Below, piece by piece: positions 1,565-58,864 of a stretch of 64,000 nucleotides of DNA. The notes under the pieces were generated by a model, which saw nothing but the letters and a program-made list of their open reading frames with translations, was not told the DNA's origin and searched no databases. Both the position numbers and the translations under genes were made by a program. Each line of letters opens with the position of its first letter. The stretch's first letter is position 1. This stretch comes from Cellulosimicrobium funkei (lineage in GTDB: Bacteria; Actinomycetota; Actinomycetes; Actinomycetales; Cellulomonadaceae): assembly GCF_004519295.1 (NCBI RefSeq), contig NZ_SOZH01000004.1, forward strand, positions 434,001-498,000, in the 5' to 3' direction.

Positions 1565-4500
1565 GTGCGCACTTCATCGCCGAGACGCGTTCGACGCGCC
1601 CTCGCCTCGTTCCTCGCCGCGGCGCTCGCCGCCGGCCTCACCGTCGCCGGCACCGGCGCCCCGGCCCAGGCGGCCGCGGCCGACGTGACCGGCGGGTCGG
1701 CTACCTGGAACTTCGTCGACTCGTGGACGTCGTACGTCACGGGCGGCATCGCCCAGGGCACGATCACCCCGCCGCTCCAGGGCGGCCAGGCGTCCTACGG
1801 CCCCGCGTCCGGCAGCTACGACGCCGCGTCCGGGACGGGCTCCGTCCGTCTCGGCGGCTCGACCCGGTACGAGGGCCACCACGGCGCGCTCGACGTGACG
1901 ATCTCCGACGTGCGGCTCGACCTCACCGGCCCGACGACGGGCGCGGTCTACGCGGACTTCGCGGGCACGGTGAACCCCGGCGCGGGGGACGACGTGAAGG
2001 TCGCCGACGTCACGGTGTCCACGACGCGGGTCGGCGACGAGGTCACGTTCGTGGCCGACGGGACCGTCGTCGGGACGCTCGGGAACGTCTCGCCGTACTT
2101 CGCGTCGTACGCGGGCAAGCCCCTGTCGACCCTGACCGCCCGCGTCGTGTCGCCCGAGTCGGTGGCGCCCGCGCAGGCGACGACGACCACGCTCGCCGCA
2201 GCGCCCGCGGGCACGTCCGCGGCCGGGGCGAGCGTGACGCTCACCGCGACCGTCGCGCCCGCCGCCGCGGGCACGGTCGAGTTCCGCGACGGCGGCACCG
2301 CCCTCGGCACCGCTCCCGTGGCCGACGGCGTCGCGCGCCTCGAGACCGCGGCCCTCGCCCCGGGCAGCCACCAGCTGAGCGCCGCCTTCGCGCCCGCCGA
2401 CCCGGCCGCGTTCGTCGCCTCGGCCTCCGCGGCCGTCGCGCACACGGTGACCGTTCCGGAGCCCGAGCCCGAGCCGGAGCCCGAGCCGGAGCCCGCCGTC
2501 GACCCCGCGGTCACGGTGTCGCCGTCGGCGCCCGTCGACCCGGCGGTGGAGAACACGTTTACGATCCAGGGCACCGGGTTCGTCGGCGCGGGCGCCGCGA
2601 ACGGCGCGTACGTGCTCCTCGGCGACGCCTCGATCTGGGACGGCAGCGGCCCTCTCGTCGCGAGCGGCTGGCTCGCCCAGGGCTGGGTCATGCCGCAGCA
2701 GGTGCGCGACGGCGCGTTCACGACGACGCTGACCGTCCCGGCAGGAAAGCTCGACCCGGCGAAGCAGTACGTGGTGGCGACGTCCGCCGCGCACGGCCTC
2801 TCGGCGACCGACCGCAGCCTCGACACGTTCACGCCCGTCGCGGTCCAGGGCGGCACGACGCCCGAGCCGGTCTGGGAGCCGCGGATCACCCTCTACGCCG
2901 CCGACGGCACGACGCCGCTCGGGGACGCGCCCGTCCGCCCGGACGACAGGATCGTCGTCAAGGGCTCGGGCTTCGACCCGGCCGCGAACGTCGCGCCGGC
3001 GGGCAACCGCCCGCCGATCTCCGGCGGCATCCCCGCCGGCACCTACGTGGTCTTCGGCAGCTTCGCGGCCGACTGGCGCCCGTCGGAGGGTGCCCCGTCG
3101 AGCGCGCGCACGGCCGGCTCGCAGCGGTGGGCACTCTCGTCCGCGGCGCTCGACCAGGTGGACCCGCGCTACCAGTCCGCGATCCGCGGGCAGTGGGCCG
3201 AGCTCGCGCCGGACGGCACGTTCACCGCCGAGCTCGTCGCGAGCGAGCTCGAGCGTGAGGGCGGCCGCTACGGCGTCTACACGTACGCCGCGGGCGGCAC
3301 GGTCAACGCCGCGCAGGAGCTGTACGCGCCCGTCGCGTTCACGACGGAGCCCGAGGCGCCCGTGTGGGAGCCCGAGATCTCGGTGCTCGCCGCGGACGGC
3401 ACGACGCCCCTCGGCGACACCCCGGTCGCGGTGGGCGACACGATCGTCGTCCGGGGCACCGGCTTCGACCCGGCGGCGAACGTCGGCGGGCGCGGCGTCC
3501 CGATCCCGGCGACGCTCCCGCAGGGCACCTACGTCGTGTTCGGGAGCTTCGCCGAGCAGTGGCGGCCGTCCGAGGGCGCCGCGGCGTCGACCCGCAAGGT
3601 CGGCTCGCAGGTGTGGGCCCTCGCCGAGCCCGTGCTCGACCAGGTCCCCGCGCAGTACCAGTCGGTGGTCCGGGCGCAGTGGGCGGACATCACGCCGGAC
3701 GGCACGTTCGAGGCGCGTCTCGTCGTGAAGAACCCCGCCGCGCTCGAGGGCGGTCGCTACGGCGTCGCCACCTACGGCGCGGGCGGCGTGAGCAACGCCG
3801 CGCAGGAGCTCTTCGTCCCCGTCGCGTACGACGCGCCGGGCACGCTCACGGTCACGCCCGCGTCCACCACGGTGGAGGCCGGCTCGACGATCCGCCTCGC
3901 CGTGCGCGGCCTCGCTGCGGACGACGCGGTCAAGGCCGTGACGTTCGGCGGCGCCCCGGCGTCGTACTCCCGCGACGGCGCGACGCTCGTGCTCACGGTC
4001 CCCGCCGGCACCCCCGCCGGGCCCGTCCCCGTGGTCGTCACGTCGGAGCTCGGCCTGACCGGCAGCACCACGCTGACCGTGACCGCCCCGGTCCCCGGGG
4101 GCGAGGCGAAGTCGACCACGACGACGCTCGCGTCGTCGGCGACGTCGGTCGTCGAGGGCGCGGCGGTGACGCTCACCGCGACGGTCGCGCCGAAGGCGGC
4201 CGGCACGGTCCGGTTCGTCGCGGGCGGCACGACCCTGGGCACCGCGGCCGTCACGGACGGTGTCGCGACGTTCCGGACGGGCCCGCTCGCCGTCGGGTCG
4301 CACGCCCTGAGCGCGACGTTCGTCCCCACGGACGCCACCGCCTACCGCGGCTCGACGTCCGCGCCGGTGACCGTCGCGGTGACCGCCACGCCGGTGACCC
4401 CGGCGCCGACGACGGCCGGCAGCCTCACGTGGGGCGTCAAGGAGTCGTTCCGCAGCTACATCGTGGGCCCGGTCGCGAAGGGCGGCGCGACGGCGACGAG

Positions 4501-52281: not shown

Positions 52282-53355
52282 TCAGGCGGGGTTGCAGCGC
52301 GCGGACATCGTGGCGAGGAGCCCGACGTCGGGCCGCCAGGGCTCGAGGTTCCACGTCGCCTTGTCCAGGGCGCCGACGGCGTGGCACACGAGCTGGTCGT
52401 GCATCGTCGGGGTGTCGGCCTCCGGCTCGGCGGCGACGACCTGCGCCCACACGAGCTCCTGGCCCGCCTGCCCCGCGGCGCGGGCCCACGCGGTCGGGTC
52501 GACGGCGAGCGAAAGGCCGCCCTCGCGCTCGCCCCAGTCGGTGCTCCGCACCGCGCGCGTGCCGAGCGGGACGACGACCTCCCACGCCCCGGCGTCGTCG
52601 GTCGTCGCGGTCCCGTCCGGGTCCCCGTCGGGAGCGCCCGCCGCGTCGCCCCCGCCCGGCGCCGTCCCCGCCGTCCCCACGAGCGTCACCTCCGCGCGGT
52701 GGGCGTCGACGAGCGCGACCCGGACGCGCGGGGTCCCGGGTGCGGGGGTGCCCGCCGCGGGGCCGGCGTCCGTGCCGTCGGCCGTCCCGCCCTCTGCCCC
52801 GCTCGCCCCGTTCGCACCGTCGGCGCCGTCCGCGCCGGGCGTGCCCGGCGCGCCGTGCCGGCCCACGACGCGCGGGGCGCCGAGCCCGCCGACGGGTGTG
52901 CCGCCGTCGTCCAGGACGGTGAGCGTGCCGTCCGGGTGGCGCACGAGCGAGCCGCCCTCCACCGAGACCACGGCTGGGGCACCCGCAAGGGCGAGCGTGA
53001 CGTCGGACGCGCCCTCGGCGTCGGCCGTGACCCGGGGGGGTGCCGCCCCGCCCGACGCCGGCGGGGGCACGGCGATCTCGACCGTCGCCGTCCCGACGGG
53101 GAACCGCAGGGACGCGAGCTCGGCGTCGCCGCTCCGGTCGCCGTCCGGGTCGTCCGCGGCGCGGCCGTCCTCCGTGGTGGCGCCAGGGCCGGGGGACGGG
53201 ACCCGCGCCGGTGCGGACGTCACCACGTCCGGGTCCGGCGGCGGGGTGCCGGGCGTGCACGCGGCGAGCGCGACCGGGACCAGGACGCCGACGGCGAGCG
53301 CGCCCAGCACCGTCGTCCCGGGCCGCCCGTCGGCGACCCGGCGCGGGCGGGTCAC
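52282..53355 (-). CDS. DUF2599-type lipoprotein with a collagen-like segment
   Basis: A 357-residue exported protein. N-terminal signal with lipobox VALAAC (Cys33) predicts a lipid anchor. The C-terminal 110 residues, WGEREGGLSLAVDPTAWARAAG...TPTMHDQLVCHAVGALDKATWNLEPWRPDV, match the DUF2599 family of secreted actinobacterial proteins with unknown role. Between them, near 168-190, is a Gly-X-Y run (GAPGTPGADGADGANGASGAEGG) like bacterial collagen, then a Gly/Asp/Ala-rich linker. GTG start overlaps the NUDIX stop (GTGA). Confidence 0.8.
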   Translation of the reverse strand: MTRPRRVADGRPGTTVLGALAVGVLVPVALAACTPGTPPPDPDVVTSAPARVPSPGPGATTEDGRAADDPDGDRSGDAELASLRFPVGTATVEIAVPPPASGGAAPPRVTADAEGASDVTLALAGAPAVVSVEGGSLVRHPDGTLTVLDDGGTPVGGLGAPRVVGRHGAPGTPGADGADGANGASGAEGGTADGTDAGPAAGTPAPGTPRVRVALVDAHRAEVTLVGTAGTAPGGGDAAGAPDGDPDGTATTDDAGAWEVVVPLGTRAVRSTDWGEREGGLSLAVDPTAWARAAGQAGQELVWAQVVAAEPEADTPTMHDQLVCHAVGALDKATWNLEPWRPDVGLLATMSARCNPA

Positions 53356-53792
53356 GACGGCACGGGGAGCAGGCCGGCCCAGCGGCGGGCCACGTCGACC
53401 AGGCCGACGCGGTCCAGCGCGTCGACCTCGTCGGGCGTGAACCAGCCGACGTCGTCGGTCGACTCGTCCTCCTCGACGCGCAGCTCTCCGCCTACCACGT
53501 GGGCCCGGTAGACGATGCGGATCGCGTGCAGCGACCGGTCGCGGTCCTCGGGCCGGATCCGGTCGGCGGCGTCGATCACGAGGCTGTCGACGCCGAGCAG
53601 GCCGTCGAGCTCGACGTCGTAGCCGGTCTCCTCGCGCACCTCGCGGACGGCCGCGGCGGCGGGGTCCTCGCCCGGGTCGATGCCGCCGCCGGGCAGCGTC
53701 CAGCCGCCGCGGTCCCCCTCGCTCCAGTGGGGGAGGAGCATCCGGCCGTCCTCGCGGACGACCACGGCGTAGGCGGCGACGCGGATCTGCAT
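53352..53792 (-). CDS. NUDIX hydrolase
   Basis: A 146-residue NUDIX pyrophosphohydrolase with the complete box GGGIDPGEDPAAAAVREVREETGYDV (metal ligands in REVREETG). It hydrolyses a nucleoside diphosphate linked to another group; the exact substrate is unknown. It lacks signals or extra domains. ATG at 53792. It is coupled to the downstream lipoprotein gene by a four-base overlap and is divergent from the small secreted protein gene. Confidence 0.9.
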   Translation of the reverse strand: MQIRVAAYAVVVREDGRMLLPHWSEGDRGGWTLPGGGIDPGEDPAAAAVREVREETGYDVELDGLLGVDSLVIDAADRIRPEDRDRSLHAIRIVYRAHVVGGELRVEEDESTDDVGWFTPDEVDALDRVGLVDVARRWAGLLPVPS

Positions 53793-54023
53793 GGACCCAT
53801 CATGCGCGACGGGTTCCCTCCGTCCGGCGCGGTGCGTCGGTCCCTCGGCTCCCCGGGGGCCAGCTCGGGGCGCTGGTCGGTGACGGAGCCCGCCGCTCGC
53901 CCCGGGAGGCGACGTCGTCGACGGACGTCCGTGTCAGCATGTGGAAGGTCCCCCCGAGCACGCGGGCGGGAGAGGACGATCCTCCCGTTCGTCCCAGGGG
54001 GGCGTCAGGAAGGGGACATCGCG

Positions 54024-54335
54024 ATGAGGCGAAAGATCATGGCTACCGTGACCGCGGCGGCACTGGCCCTCGGAGGGGCCGTGCTCGTCCAGGGGTCGGC
54101 GGAGGCCGCGCTGTGGGCGAACTGCTCGGGGCAGATCCTGAGGAACGGCGCCGGTCAGAGCGCACCGCGGATCTCGTGCACGACCGTCGGTCCTCGGACC
54201 GAGGCGCGCGGGAAGCTGGACTGCACGGCTGCGCCCGACACGGCCACCGCCTGGGTTCGCGCGTACCAGAGCTCGACCGGGGGCTTCTGCCTGTTCGGCG
54301 CCCGCGGCTACTCCTACGAGGTCCGCGGGTACTAG
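54024..54335 (+). CDS. Small secreted four-cysteine protein
   Basis: A 103-residue precursor with a standard signal peptide (MRRKIMATVTAAALALGGAVL, cleavage near residue 28 after AEA) and a mature part of about 75 residues with four Cys (34, 52, 67, 89) that can form two disulfides; it ends in an aromatic run YSYEVRGY. GGAAGGGG precedes the ATG. I recognise no family; it does not fit lactococcin 972. It leads a three-gene operon with an ABC ATPase and an FtsX-type permease, as in some exported peptide/bacteriocin or envelope-sensing loci. The role is unknown. Confidence 0.7.
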   Translation: MRRKIMATVTAAALALGGAVLVQGSAEAALWANCSGQILRNGAGQSAPRISCTTVGPRTEARGKLDCTAAPDTATAWVRAYQSSTGGFCLFGARGYSYEVRGY

Positions 54336-54362
54336 CGACCACGGCGTCGTAGGGAGCAGAGC

Positions 54363-55016
54363 ATGACCACGGTCGAGTTCCGGGATGCGACGCTCGTGGT
54401 GGGGAGGGGGCGCGTGGCGCGCCCCCTCTTCCGCGGGTTCTCACGGGTGTTCCGCGCAGGGTGCGTGACGGCCGTCGTCGGCCCGTCGGGGAGCGGCAAG
54501 ACCAGTCTCCTGCGGGCCGTCCTCGGAGAGGTGCCGCTGTCGGCCGGGTCGGTGCACGTGGCGGGGCGAGACGTCGGTCGGCTCCGGGACAAGTCTGCGC
54601 TTCGACGGACCTCGGTCACGACGATCGCGCAGGACCTCAACCTCGTCGACACCCTCACGGCCGAGGAGAACGTCCTGTTCGGGCTCAGGGTGGCAGGGGT
54701 CCGCGGTGCCGAGGCCCAGGTCGAGGGCTGGTTCGAGCGGCTCGGCATCGCCGACGTCCGTACCATGCTGCCGACGACGCTCTCGGGCGGCGAGCGGCAG
54801 CGGGTCGCGATCGCGCGTTCCCTGGCGTCACCACATCCCGTCGTGCTCGCCGACGAGCCGACGGGAGCGCTCGACGAGGAGAACACCCGCATCGTCGTCG
54901 AACAGCTCAAGTACTTCTCGTCCGAGGGAAAGTGCTGCATCGTCGTCACGCACGACCCCGTCGTGGCCGCGGGTGCCGACGAGGTCGTGGCGTTCCACGA
55001 GGGCTTCGTGGGATGA
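54363..55016 (+). CDS. ABC transporter ATPase (LolD/MacB type)
   Basis: A 217-residue ABC ATPase. Walker A GPSGSGKT at 40-47, Q-loop AQDLN near 90, signature LSGGE 140-144, Walker B VLADEPTG 161-168 and the His in VVTHDP. The sequence is closest to ATPases that work with FtsX/MacB-type permeases, which move lipids or peptides or transmit mechanical force. Its stop overlaps the permease start (ATGA). It uses codons that neighbours avoid (TCT, CTT, CGA, TCA, AGG), suggesting transfer. Confidence 0.9.
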   Translation: MTTVEFRDATLVVGRGRVARPLFRGFSRVFRAGCVTAVVGPSGSGKTSLLRAVLGEVPLSAGSVHVAGRDVGRLRDKSALRRTSVTTIAQDLNLVDTLTAEENVLFGLRVAGVRGAEAQVEGWFERLGIADVRTMLPTTLSGGERQRVAIARSLASPHPVVLADEPTGALDEENTRIVVEQLKYFSSEGKCCIVVTHDPVVAAGADEVVAFHEGFVG

Positions 55017-57331
55017 GAGCCGTCACCCCCGCGGGCCTGGGCGTGCGCAACCTGCGGGGGCTGTGGCGGCACTCCGCGTTGCTGGCGGTCGTCGTCGCGG
55101 TCGTCGTCGCGGGGACGTTCGCGGTGTTCTCGGTGCGCGGCAGCGCCCAGTACTCCGGTGAGGAGCTCGCGCGCATCGCCATGGGCGAGGCGGACCTCCA
55201 GGCACGCTTCGCGGGGGGCGACGTCGCGTCCGTGCCCGAGGTCGAGCCCGGGCCCGGGACCGGAATCGCTCGCGTGCTCACCGACACCGACCTGCGCACG
55301 ACGCTCGTCGCGGGCACCGCGTCGCAGATGCTCGACGGGCGGGTCGTCGCCTACGAGGACCCGATGACGACGGGGATCGTCACCTTCGCCCGCGACGTCT
55401 CCGGCTCTCCCGAGCTCGCGCTGTCCCCGGCAGCGGCCGACCGCCTCGGGGTCGTCCTCGGAGACACGGTCGGCGTCCGGACTGCCGGGTCGACCGTGAC
55501 GCTGACCTTCACCGACGAGGTGCGGTACGCCGGCGCCACCGACGCCGCGTTCTTCCTGATCTCCCCGGCCGGGGCCGACGCAGCGCAGCTCGAGCAGATC
55601 GTGGACGGCGCGTCGAGCTCCTTGACTCCCCGATGGCTGGTCGAGAGCACGGACCCGCTCGTGACAGGCCAGCGTCTGCGCGACCTGGGGCTCACGGTGG
55701 CGACACGAGGCGGCTTCACGGCTCAGCCACCGACGGACCTGGTCGACGTCGATCTCGTGCTGGGCGGTGTCGGGCTGGTAGCCGCCGGCGTCCTCGGCGC
55801 CACGACGGCCTCGCTGGCGCAGGCGCGCGGGCGCCAGGACGCGATCCTGCGCGCGCTGGGTGCGACGAGGCGCGAGCGGCGGACGGTGTGGTCGGTCCAC
55901 GCGGGCGCGGCAGCGGGAGGTGGTGCGGCGGTCGGCCTCGTGCTCGGGGCAGTCGTGACGCACGTGGGCGTCGCGCTGCTCTCGGGCGTCGTCCACCAGG
56001 ACTGGGGCGGCATCGACTACGCGTGGCTCCCGGGGATCCTCGCCGCTGCGCTCGCGAGCGCTGCCGTGCTCGTGGTCGTCGTCGGCGGTGTCCGTGAGCC
56101 TGCCGCGGCAGGGGAGCCGGCTCGTGGGAGGGGACCCGCGTGGACGCGCCGCGGTGGCTACACGGTGCGCGTGGCCGCACGCCTCGCGACCCGATCCCGG
56201 GGACTTCGGAGGGTCGGGGTGGTCGTCGTCGGCTCGGCGGTCGCCGTGAGCTGCGCGGGTCTGGCGACGGTGGAGGCCGCCCGGGAGAGGGCGGTCACGG
56301 CCTACGTCGCGGCGGTGCCCGTCGGCGATGCGGAGCTCCGGACGGGCCGAGCGCTGACCGACGCCGAGCGGTCGGCGATCGAGGTGAGCGGCAACCTCCG
56401 GGTGATCGACGACGCACGGGCGTCGTTCACGGTCGACTCGGCGGGCACGGACGTCCCGGTCGTCCTCGAGAGCGACTTCACCCGGTGCGCGCGCGCCGGG
56501 GCCGTCGACGACTGCCTCGACCGAGCAACCCTGCAGGACGACCGGTCGGTGCTCCTGGTGGACGGCGCCGACGAGGCTGCGGCGCTCCTCGGTCGAGACG
56601 TCACGGCCGAGGAGAGGAGCGCGCTCGACGAGGGGGACGGGCTCCTCCTGGTCGAGCCGGACGACGACGTGGTGCTCGTGCCGCCACCCGGCTACAGCGA
56701 GTCCGAGACGGACTTCCGCCGGGCGCTCGATCCGGTCGCCGTCGACGGGTACGCGACGTTCGGCAGGCTTCCGGCTCTGATCGTCTCCGCGGAGCGCGGG
56801 GTGGAGCTGGGGCTCTTCGAGGAGAGGAGCGGGCTGGGGTTCTCCTTCCTCGTCCCTCAGACCGGGGCGATCGACGAGAGCGTCGTCCGGACCGCGCTGC
56901 CGGCAGACGTCTCCGGCACCGCCGAGCTCGTCGTCGAGGCCGGGCCGCCTCTCGTCGGGATCCTCGACACGATCGCCCGCACCACGCTCCTCGTCGGCAG
57001 CGGGCTCGTCGTCCTCGTCGTCCTCCTCCTGGTCGCGGCCTGGGCAGAGGACAGCGCGCCTCAGCTGCGCGCCCTGGCCGCCGTGGGAGCACGTCCGCGG
57101 ATGCTGCGCGGGGTCCTCGTGCTGCGCAGCCTGGTGTCGGTCCTCCCCGCGGTGCTGCTGGGCCTCGGGACCGCCGCGGTCCTCGCGGGCGCGTTCGCGC
57201 TGGTCGCCGGAGCCCGTCCCTCCGGGGCGGGAGACGCGTGGTGGCTACCGGTGCTCGTCGCGGTGCTGGGGTCGGGCGCCGCCGCGTGGCTCCTGGCTCC
57301 CGTGCCGCGGCAGTCTCTCGCGCGGCGCTGA
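55013..57331 (+). CDS. FtsX/MacB-like ABC permease
   Basis: A 772-residue membrane protein with two FtsX-like halves. An N-terminal helix (about 22-43) leads to an extracytoplasmic domain of 190 residues; three helices follow near 245-360, with ASLAQARGRQDAILRALGATRRERRTVW as the FtsX cytoplasmic loop; then a second anchor helix near 390-410, a larger outside domain, and three C-terminal helices with QLRALAAVGARPRMLRGVLVLRSLVSVLP. This fits a 4+4-helix permease. It probably acts with the preceding ATPase and the small secreted protein. Codon use is atypical as in the ATPase. Confidence 0.85.
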   Translation: MRAVTPAGLGVRNLRGLWRHSALLAVVVAVVVAGTFAVFSVRGSAQYSGEELARIAMGEADLQARFAGGDVASVPEVEPGPGTGIARVLTDTDLRTTLVAGTASQMLDGRVVAYEDPMTTGIVTFARDVSGSPELALSPAAADRLGVVLGDTVGVRTAGSTVTLTFTDEVRYAGATDAAFFLISPAGADAAQLEQIVDGASSSLTPRWLVESTDPLVTGQRLRDLGLTVATRGGFTAQPPTDLVDVDLVLGGVGLVAAGVLGATTASLAQARGRQDAILRALGATRRERRTVWSVHAGAAAGGGAAVGLVLGAVVTHVGVALLSGVVHQDWGGIDYAWLPGILAAALASAAVLVVVVGGVREPAAAGEPARGRGPAWTRRGGYTVRVAARLATRSRGLRRVGVVVVGSAVAVSCAGLATVEAARERAVTAYVAAVPVGDAELRTGRALTDAERSAIEVSGNLRVIDDARASFTVDSAGTDVPVVLESDFTRCARAGAVDDCLDRATLQDDRSVLLVDGADEAAALLGRDVTAEERSALDEGDGLLLVEPDDDVVLVPPPGYSESETDFRRALDPVAVDGYATFGRLPALIVSAERGVELGLFEERSGLGFSFLVPQTGAIDESVVRTALPADVSGTAELVVEAGPPLVGILDTIARTTLLVGSGLVVLVVLLLVAAWAEDSAPQLRALAAVGARPRMLRGVLVLRSLVSVLPAVLLGLGTAAVLAGAFALVAGARPSGAGDAWWLPVLVAVLGSGAAAWLLAPVPRQSLARR

Positions 57332-57400
57332 GGCGGGTGGCGCGGCCGATCGTCGGTCCCGCGGTGCCCACGCGCCTCCCGCCGAACGGCGGGTCGTCGG

Positions 57401-58864
57401 TCACTCGTCGTCGATGCCGTCCTCCAGGCGGGACACGTCGGAGAACGCGATCCGGCGGTGGCGCACCGAGCGGTTGTAGAGCCACGTGACGAACGAGAGC
57501 ACGACCCCGAGGGCCACGAGCGCGCCCGCGATGACGTACTGCTCCTGCTGCTCGGCGCTGCGGGCCCACGGCCCGGCGAGGTACGCGCACGTGAGGGCGC
57601 CGAGCACCGCGAGCCAGGTGCGGGTGCGGAAGTGCTCGTGGTCGACGCGGTCGCGGCGCAGCACGAGGAGCGCGATGTTGACGATCGTGAAGACGACGAG
57701 CAGGAGCAGCGACGTCGTCCCGCCCAGCAGGGCGACCGCGTTGGTGCCCTCCGCGGTCCCGGACTGCCGCACGACGTACACGATGAGCGCGAACGCGATG
57801 GCCGTCGTCACGAGGATCGCGACCCACGGCGTGCGGCGGAACGGGTGCACCTGGCCGAACGCACGCGGCAGCACGCCCTGGTTCGCCATCCCGTAGAGCA
57901 GGCGGGACGCCATGAGCATGTTGATGAGCGCCGAGTTCGCGACGGCGAACATCCCGATGAACGGGAAGATCGTGTCGAAGGGCAGGTTCGGCGCGCCCGC
58001 CGCGACGACCTGCGTGAGCGCCGACCCCTTGGCGTCGTCCGTGAGGTCGCCCACGGGGACGAGCGCGACGGCGGTGATCGCGACGAGCACGTAGATCGCG
58101 CCCGTGATCGAGAGCCCCGTGAGCATCATGCGCGGGAAGTCCCGCACGGGGTTCTTGCACTCCTCCGCCATGTTCACGGAGTCCTCGAACCCGACCATGG
58201 CGAAGAACGCGAGCGTCGTCGCGGCGGTGACGGCGAGGAACACGCTCTTGTCGTCGGCGCTCTCGAACACGACGACGCGCGAGAAGTCGGCGCGACCCTG
58301 CGTCGTCGCCCACAGCCCCACGAAGACGACGAGCAGGAGGCCGGACAGCTCGACGAGCGACAGCACGACGTTCGCCTTGACGCTCTCACCGACCCCGCGC
58401 AGGTTGACGAGCGCGACGAGGGCCATGAAGGCGAGGGCGATGAGCAGGCGGCCGTCGCCGCCCGTCGGCAGCCCGAGCCCGAACCCGTCGGAGACGAACC
58501 CCGCGAACGCGTTGGACGCCGTGGAGGCCGAGGTGATCCCGGAGCTCATGACCATGAACGCGACGACGAACGTCAGCAGGTGGATGCCGAACGCCTTGTG
58601 CGTGTAGAGCGCGGCGCCGGCGGCGCTCGGGTACTTCGTGACGAGCTCGAGGTAGGAGAACGCGGTGATCGTCGCGACGACGAACGCGAGCAGGAACGGC
58701 AGCCACGCCGCCCCGCCGACCTCGCCCGCGACCTGGCCGGTGAGCGCGTACACGCCCGTGCCCAGGATGTCCCCGACGATGAACAGCAGGAGCAGCTTGG
58801 GCCCCATGACGCGCTTGAGCTCCGGTTGCTGCCGTTCCTGCGTGCGGCCCGCGGTCTCGCTCAT
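57401..58864 (-). CDS. APC-family amino acid permease
   Basis: A 487-residue transporter of the amino acid-polyamine-organocation family with about 12 membrane helices. The N-terminal signature GPKLLLLFIVGDILGTGVYALTGQVAGEVGGAAWLPFLLAFVVA is typical of helix 1 with its unwound GxG. FFAMVGFEDSVNMAEECKNPVRDFPR is the helix 6-7 substrate/cation region. It probably imports amino acids; the specificity is unknown. ATG at 58864 has AAGGAG six bases upstream. Confidence 0.9.
   Translation of the reverse strand: MSETAGRTQERQQPELKRVMGPKLLLLFIVGDILGTGVYALTGQVAGEVGGAAWLPFLLAFVVATITAFSYLELVTKYPSAAGAALYTHKAFGIHLLTFVVAFMVMSSGITSASTASNAFAGFVSDGFGLGLPTGGDGRLLIALAFMALVALVNLRGVGESVKANVVLSLVELSGLLLVVFVGLWATTQGRADFSRVVVFESADDKSVFLAVTAATTLAFFAMVGFEDSVNMAEECKNPVRDFPRMMLTGLSITGAIYVLVAITAVALVPVGDLTDDAKGSALTQVVAAGAPNLPFDTIFPFIGMFAVANSALINMLMASRLLYGMANQGVLPRAFGQVHPFRRTPWVAILVTTAIAFALIVYVVRQSGTAEGTNAVALLGGTTSLLLLVVFTIVNIALLVLRRDRVDHEHFRTRTWLAVLGALTCAYLAGPWARSAEQQEQYVIAGALVALGVVLSFVTWLYNRSVRHRRIAFSDVSRLEDGIDDE

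Follow-up and report, generated by a model that had tools for sequence, protein, structure and literature searches.

What does a compact three-gene operon, in which a small secreted protein is encoded directly ahead of an ATP-binding cassette (ABC) ATPase and an FtsX-type permease, do for Cellulosimicrobium funkei? We analysed the operon in a stretch of 64,000 nucleotides of this actinomycete (contig NZ_SOZH01000004.1, positions 434,001 to 498,000), which we call the window and whose first base is position 1. The three genes were acquired by horizontal transfer, are under purifying selection, and recur in the same order in other genomes. We think it slightly more likely than not that they form a bacteriocin-like cassette with a dedicated ABC transporter for self-protection, comparable to the lactococcin 972 operon.

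The small gene (54024..54335, forward strand) encodes 103 residues with cysteines at positions 34, 52, 67 and 89. By inspection, a Sec-type signal (54024-54107) ends at SAEA/ALWAN and leaves a mature part of 75 residues (54108-54332), in which the same inspection found no lipobox, anchor or transmembrane segment; the Tat signal model gave 12.9 bits against a cut-off of 16.7. The ATPase gene (54363..55016, forward strand, 217 residues) follows after a gap of 27 bases. Its LolD/MacB/FtsE-type product passed the Pfam cut-off for ABC_tran (PF00005, 102 bits) and carries Walker A (GPSGSGKT), signature (LSGGERQR), Walker B (VVLADEP) and H-loop motifs. The permease gene (55013..57331, forward strand, 772 residues) overlaps the ATPase gene by four bases (ATGA), so that all three genes form a tight operon on one strand. 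The permease matched FtsX (PF02687) with 37.2 bits over the whole protein (cut-off 25.5) in two stretches, and simple hydropathy showed about eight hydrophobic segments in the order one, large loop, three, one, large loop, three, that is, two repeats with two large loops. ATPase motifs and an FtsX domain over cut-off place the pair with the MacB/LolCDE/FtsX-type ABC transporters. An earlier note made from the sequence of the locus had described a signal-peptide protein with four cysteines and a mature part of about 75 residues, a LolD/MacB-like ATPase and an eight-helix FtsX-type permease, and it was right in each of these as well as in the coordinates and the two junctions.

That note had also placed the small protein in no family known to its author, and library searches bore this out. 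No Pfam or NCBIfam model scored above its cut-off, no match was found in PHROGs or PADLOC at the limits used (the PADLOC scan gave generic ATPase matches only), and no PDB entry matched by sequence. DUF7504 was considered and rejected, with 21.8 bits against a cut-off of 27 and no match in the closest relative of the protein, from Oerskovia douganii. A plasmid search returned nothing for the small protein or the permease of the window, and the same search with four relatives gave, besides blanks, one chance-level match and one stand-alone Streptomyces protein. Literature searches found no title on the small protein with its transporter. Judged by profile matches, the family is named in none of the protein libraries searched, and we call it undescribed on the basis of that absence and of the literature titles.

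To trace the origin of the operon, we scanned one genome per species across 84,980 species, a scan sensitive to close relatives only. It showed one close relative, in Oerskovia douganii (G085), which was also the only one of 200 family genomes, the window genome aside, with close relatives of both the small protein and the permease. Identity between the two copies was 68% for the small protein, 65% for the ATPase and 51% for the permease (identical residues: 60/75 in the mature small protein, 140/216 and 391/770, respectively). No close relative of the cassette was found in 16 other genomes of the genus, four of which gave weak matches (E 0.002 or worse) within residues 3-57 only. Two genomes instead showed the empty site: in G106 the flanks at window positions 53811 and 57405 are joined with 20 bases between them, and in G088 with 28 bases. 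The acquired stretch, absent from the sister genomes, therefore covers the three genes and a leader (53812..57404, ends uncertain by about 15 bases). On reading, its open reading frames are the three genes, none of them a transposase or integrase, and no target-site repeat was seen by eye at the ends.

The stretch is bounded by two genes on the reverse strand that we take, from their sequences, to encode a NUDIX-type hydrolase (53352..53792; the DNA around it is kept in several sister genomes) and an APC-type amino-acid permease (57401..58864; kept in sister genomes). A blastn comparison of the window with 20 kb of the Oerskovia contig showed a match confined to the cassette, and neither flanking gene had a tblastn match in those 20 kb; the two copies thus sit at different sites. 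The cassette is patchy and mobile, travelling alone and sharing no flank with Oerskovia. The empty site and the foreign context support acquisition by horizontal transfer.

In seven sister genomes (G129, G049, G065, G112, G098, G118 and G138), the same spot (window 53811-57405) is occupied by another cassette. Its genes in G129 presumably encode a PadR-like regulator, a DrrA-like ATPase and an ABC-2 permease, and matching DNA was seen in the other six and, in part, at a contig end in G146 (L085-L091, L102). Together with G106 and G088, where the spot is almost bare, this suggests a site at which DNA has been gained and lost repeatedly.

Transfer had been proposed in the earlier note from the use of TCT, CTT, CGA, GGA and AGG codons. 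The transfer itself stood; the codon argument stood as a local contrast and shrank to a mild deviation genome-wide. The block contains 39 of these codons against 14.9 expected from the 242 genes called in a 400-kb portion of this genome, and its neighbours contain 1 in 146 codons (NUDIX gene) and 0 in 487 (APC gene), a contrast that is sharp partly because the neighbours are strongly biased. GC content at third codon positions (GC3) of the block was 0.90-0.91, at the 7th-10th percentile of the 242 genes, and codon adaptation was at the 9th-12th percentile. Among length-matched genes, lower codon adaptation was found for 2 of 43 compared with the permease, 9 of 83 compared with the ATPase and 7 of 39 compared with the small gene. 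The gene caller dropped genes with GC3 below 0.80, so the block seems somewhat more unusual than it is; its codon use is mildly atypical, shifted but not extreme.

We compared the window and Oerskovia copies for selection using a simple counting method, with synonymous divergence (dS) near saturation. The non-synonymous divergence (dN) rose from 0.156 in the mature small protein through 0.260 in the ATPase to 0.458 in the permease, while dS ranged from 0.91 (small protein) to 1.43 across the three genes. All three genes are under purifying selection, and the small protein is the most constrained. Such strong conservation of the mature protein is also what one would expect of a signal or sensing module, in which the small protein would be secreted as a messenger or would sense envelope damage, with the FtsX-type pump reporting its presence or clearing it, as BceAB-like or Vex-Pep27-like systems are said to work; FtsX-type transporters are used in envelope sensing. 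The acquired stretch, however, carries no regulator gene between its NUDIX and APC borders, and a cassette that travels alone would lack an output of its own, so we consider a sensing role quite unlikely.

The earlier note had proposed looking for the small protein next to ABC genes elsewhere, and the linkage proved to be conserved. Three profile searches with the small protein (alignments A1, A2 and A8) gave 21 distinct places across Actinomycetota, one of which is the window. Six of the remaining 20 have genes for a MacB/LolD-type ATPase and a large permease immediately downstream in the same orientation (G648 with two such places; G801, G967, G214 and G233 with one each), two have an ABC-2-type ATPase gene there, at a contig end (G720 and G317), and 12 have neither. 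A further cassette, in G116, was found as a weak match. In total, the three-gene order with short gaps on one strand was observed in nine loci of eight genomes (the window, L009, L044, L062, L063, L065, L112, L146 and L148); one permease (L112, in G967) was read over 238 residues, up to the end of the DNA examined. A mild codon signal thus goes together with conserved linkage, rather than normal codon use with none.

The linkage count carries some bias: every search started from the small protein, yet cassette rows were present in the alignments used. Of the five rows of A1, three were cassettes (the window, Oerskovia and G116) and two, G231 and G384, lacked the ABC pair; A2 added both G648 places, G801, G720, G846, G841 and G645; A8 kept mainly cassette rows, and streptomycete-like rows were dropped. 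Cassettes made up three of nine places other than the window in the A1 search, one of five new places in the A2 search, and two of the five newly listed non-row places in the A8 search (G214, G304, G233, G420 and G317). As a control, we counted open reading frames with strict ABC motifs in 400 kb of the window genome and found three against 242 called genes. This control is crude, covers one genome and uses a motif that undercounts; the rarity of such ATPases there nevertheless makes it unlikely that the small protein and the ABC genes are linked by chance.

Weak small-protein matches were listed at 53 places in 51 of the 200 family genomes, and 36 of the 53 lay within residues 2-66, mostly the signal part. 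Six of these places were examined beyond the window and G085, and further remote relatives may be among the others. Only the G116 cassette held up. The matches in G042 and G130 were rejected for lying opposite to other likely genes, and those in G035, G145 and G026 were dismissed on a single analysis.

Pairwise, the window permease matches only that of Oerskovia, while five other permeases each match at least one of the others. Profile-to-profile comparison (hhalign) joined the permeases at 98.4% (E 6.5e-15, 224 aligned columns, matching order) and the small proteins at 97.1% (E 6e-11, 78 columns, part of the signal region included). With separate profile links for the small protein and the permease, at least two genes of the cassette share ancestry across these loci. 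The Pfam FtsX model gave no match for the remote cassette permeases of L063 and L065, nor for that of L044. Four cysteines are present in the window, Oerskovia, G231 and G384 proteins and two in those of G116, G801, G967, G233 and one G648 place; the other G648 protein and the G214 protein have four at positions that are not the same. In an ATPase tree, a branch with support 94/99 split seven cassettes from four lactococcin 972 loci. Other host ATPases were unresolved among the cassette and lactococcin ATPases, and a cassette clade was not shown by the tree.

Since the small gene always precedes the ATPase gene in the nine loci, the small protein could be an accessory or substrate-binding subunit that stays with the permease and helps to move a lipid, peptide or drug. 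We consider this unlikely: on inspection, the mature window protein shows no feature to hold it at the membrane, and 12 of the 20 places carry a related domain but lack an ABC pair next to it. These 12 are in G231, G384, G304, G420, G846, G841, G597, G645 (two), G614 (two) and G668, the last being doubted as a true relative. For G597, both G614 places and one G645 place, 1.5 kb per side was examined. More distant ABC ATPase matches were found in four of the 12: in G304 (3.5 kb downstream, same strand, ABC-2-like), in G841 (2.1 kb upstream) and, on the other strand, in G384 (about 5 kb) and at one G645 place (1.2 kb). The 12 places imply that the small-protein domain can work without this transporter.

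Stand-alone secreted proteins with four cysteines occur in large-genome Actinomycetota, with no adjacent ABC pair and two copies each in G614 and G645 (L110, L111, L113 and L114, at the locus centres; L064:6033-6359, L066:6038-6385, L068:5954-6289 and L138:4893-5195). L114 showed no ABC motifs nearby, and the three of these eight proteins scanned against Pfam (L064, L066 and the L138 protein, P0005) gave nothing over cut-off. In G420 (L149, reverse strand), the small-protein domain lies inside a reading frame of 403 residues with further sequence after the domain. In G384 (L043:6152-7591), a four-cysteine relative lies among transposase-like reading frames and adjoins a secreted protein that we take, from a sequence motif, to resemble bacterial phospholipase A2. 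The two relatives with an ABC-2 (DrrA-like) ATPase, at L067:440-727 (G720) and L150 about 3738-4055 (G317), are each followed by the ATPase gene, which is cut by the contig end; the L067 ATPase was ABC-2-like by the tree. Such an ATPase is perhaps a second kind of partner for the small protein.

The stand-alone relatives would suit a third alternative, that the small protein is secreted to inhibit or bind a target (a protease or glycosidase, for example) and that its gene lies beside a general efflux pump by chance, and beta-rich secreted inhibitors with four cysteines are known from Streptomyces. Against this, the ABC linkage recurs in genomes of several families, and the window protein matched no inhibitor family over cut-off in Pfam or NCBIfam. 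We regard it as decidedly unlikely.

The bacteriocin-like cassette remains our preferred explanation, and we propose the following mechanism. The small protein would be secreted through Sec with removal of its signal and would fold outside the cell into a compact beta-rich domain, probably with two disulfides. It may then act on close competitors, with the cell surface or a cell-wall precursor as the likeliest point of attack. Together, the ATPase and permease would form a MacB/LolCDE-like pump that moves no substrate through the membrane and spends ATP on its own extracytoplasmic loops, removing the small protein or freeing its target from the envelope of the producer, with self-protection as the presumed outcome. 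In favour of self-protection, the layout is like that of lactococcin 972 operons, where the two additional genes are taken to confer immunity. Of export, protection and sensing, export by this transporter is the least likely, as the small protein has an ordinary-looking Sec signal.

Several results weigh against this explanation. Antimicrobial action is read from the operon layout by analogy. Between the window and Oerskovia, the small protein has changed least among the three, and arms-race toxins are often the fastest-changing. The majority of remote places have no adjacent ABC pair, and seven of those 12 belong to the four-cysteine group in genomes of 6-10 Mb. Several cassette proteins keep two cysteines only, and disulfides are therefore not essential family-wide. 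Structure models of the small protein were poor, with a mean predicted local distance difference test (pLDDT) score of 67 from the single sequence, a weak model that was all beta, and 47 with the Oerskovia row added. The pLDDT-67 model had no fold match: Foldseek gave none at an E value of 0.001 or lower, and no VIA-align hit reached a Z of 5; lactococcin 972 was not among the fold-search rows shown, which excludes nothing. Finally, the small protein and permease showed no sequence relation to lactococcin 972, and the cassette ATPase did not group with lactococcin 972 ATPases in the tree.

More tentatively, and with slightly less than even confidence, we suggest that Actinomycetota have a class of secreted bacteriocins, so far undescribed, to which the cassette belongs and which has its own two-repeat FtsX-type immunity pump. 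This class would have the core C...C...(A/V)(R/K/Q)...PD-x2-(S/T)-x-W, would have spread as a 3.3-kb cassette, and would include an ABC-2-tied variant and stand-alone streptomycete-like relatives. If this is true, lactococcin 972 has a counterpart unrelated in sequence, a second kind of bacteriocin that is secreted through Sec and comes with an FtsX-type pump, and the profile together with the linkage rule provides a handle to find such bacteriocins in Actinomycetota. One cassette-bearing genome in the genus and a sister with the empty site make a clean system for studying such a pump.

Among known transporters, the cassette shares ATPase motifs and FtsX domains with MacB, LolCDE and FtsEX (type VII), and differs from them in having two FtsX repeats per chain, no fused ATPase and a secreted protein encoded alongside. 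BceAB-type permeases have ten helices and one large loop; for the window permease, simple hydropathy put the hydrophobic segments at about eight and the large loops at two. The operon has no adjacent two-component system, only the NUDIX and APC genes as neighbours. The stand-alone proteins of G614, G645, G597, G841, G846 and the Streptomyces plasmid share four cysteines with similar spacing and, in five of eight, an APD-x(4)-W motif, but unlike the cassette they have no directly adjacent ABC pair.

The same genome contains a separate, genuine lactococcin 972 locus (G000:C14 about 210400-213500; L095 4400-7502). Its precursor scored 53.4 bits with PF09683 and 40.4 bits with TIGR01653 (cut-off 32.1), followed by a 681-residue membrane protein and a 238-residue ATPase. 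A whole-genome scan showed this as the one locus over cut-off, outside the window, and the small protein of the window matched neither model at E up to 1. Profile comparisons of the small protein with lactococcin 972 gave 20%, 35% and 6% over 9, 12 and 5 columns, the first from an alignment (A4) that includes L067, the relative with the ABC-2-like ATPase; one further comparison was weak (29%). The window permease did not match TIGR01654 (0.2% by profile comparison), a model that is weak on the genuine locus too (21.3 bits, cut-off 189.35). With TIGR03608 (cut-off 254.85), the window ATPase scored 136.4 bits, second to FtsE, and the genuine-locus ATPase 228.5 bits, also under cut-off but with the model ranking first. 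Neither sequence nor profile comparison revealed direct homology to lactococcin 972, and this reading was rejected. On a Streptomyces plasmid (NZ_CP108417.1; L135:3913-5297), two very similar lactococcin 972 genes lie back to back, with transporter genes behind only one of them.

Lactococcin 972-like bacteriocins are thought to be Sec-secreted, with a beta-sandwich fold, lipid II binding and two genes presumed to serve immunity and transport, according to PMC11796350 and PMC4055356. The former describes lipid II binding and block of septum formation and notes that neither accessory gene has had its function verified in any lactococcin 972 locus; the latter calls the two further genes immunity genes and gives a tolerance of 800-1600 AU/ml with the cluster against 12.5 for the host. 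The cassette differs from these systems in gene order, with the ATPase before the permease and the reverse in the four lactococcin loci read; in cysteines, with four in the window protein and none to two in nine aligned lactococcin sequences; and in lacking the invariant GG-x-W-x2-G. It resembles the operons of lactococcin 972 and streptococcin B (TIGR01653 or PF09683, TIGR01654, TIGR03608) in encoding a secreted protein with a signal peptide and a mature part of about 70 residues, an integral membrane protein and an ABC ATPase. The helix pattern of its permease (1+3/1+3) is similar to that of the permease in the genuine locus described above, and the weak all-beta model of the small protein is in line with the beta-sandwich described in PMC11796350. 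Layout, size, secretion, patchiness and mobility fit and the sequences do not, so that on the tests made the cassette is not a member of the lactococcin 972 family and would instead work like a lactococcin 972 operon.

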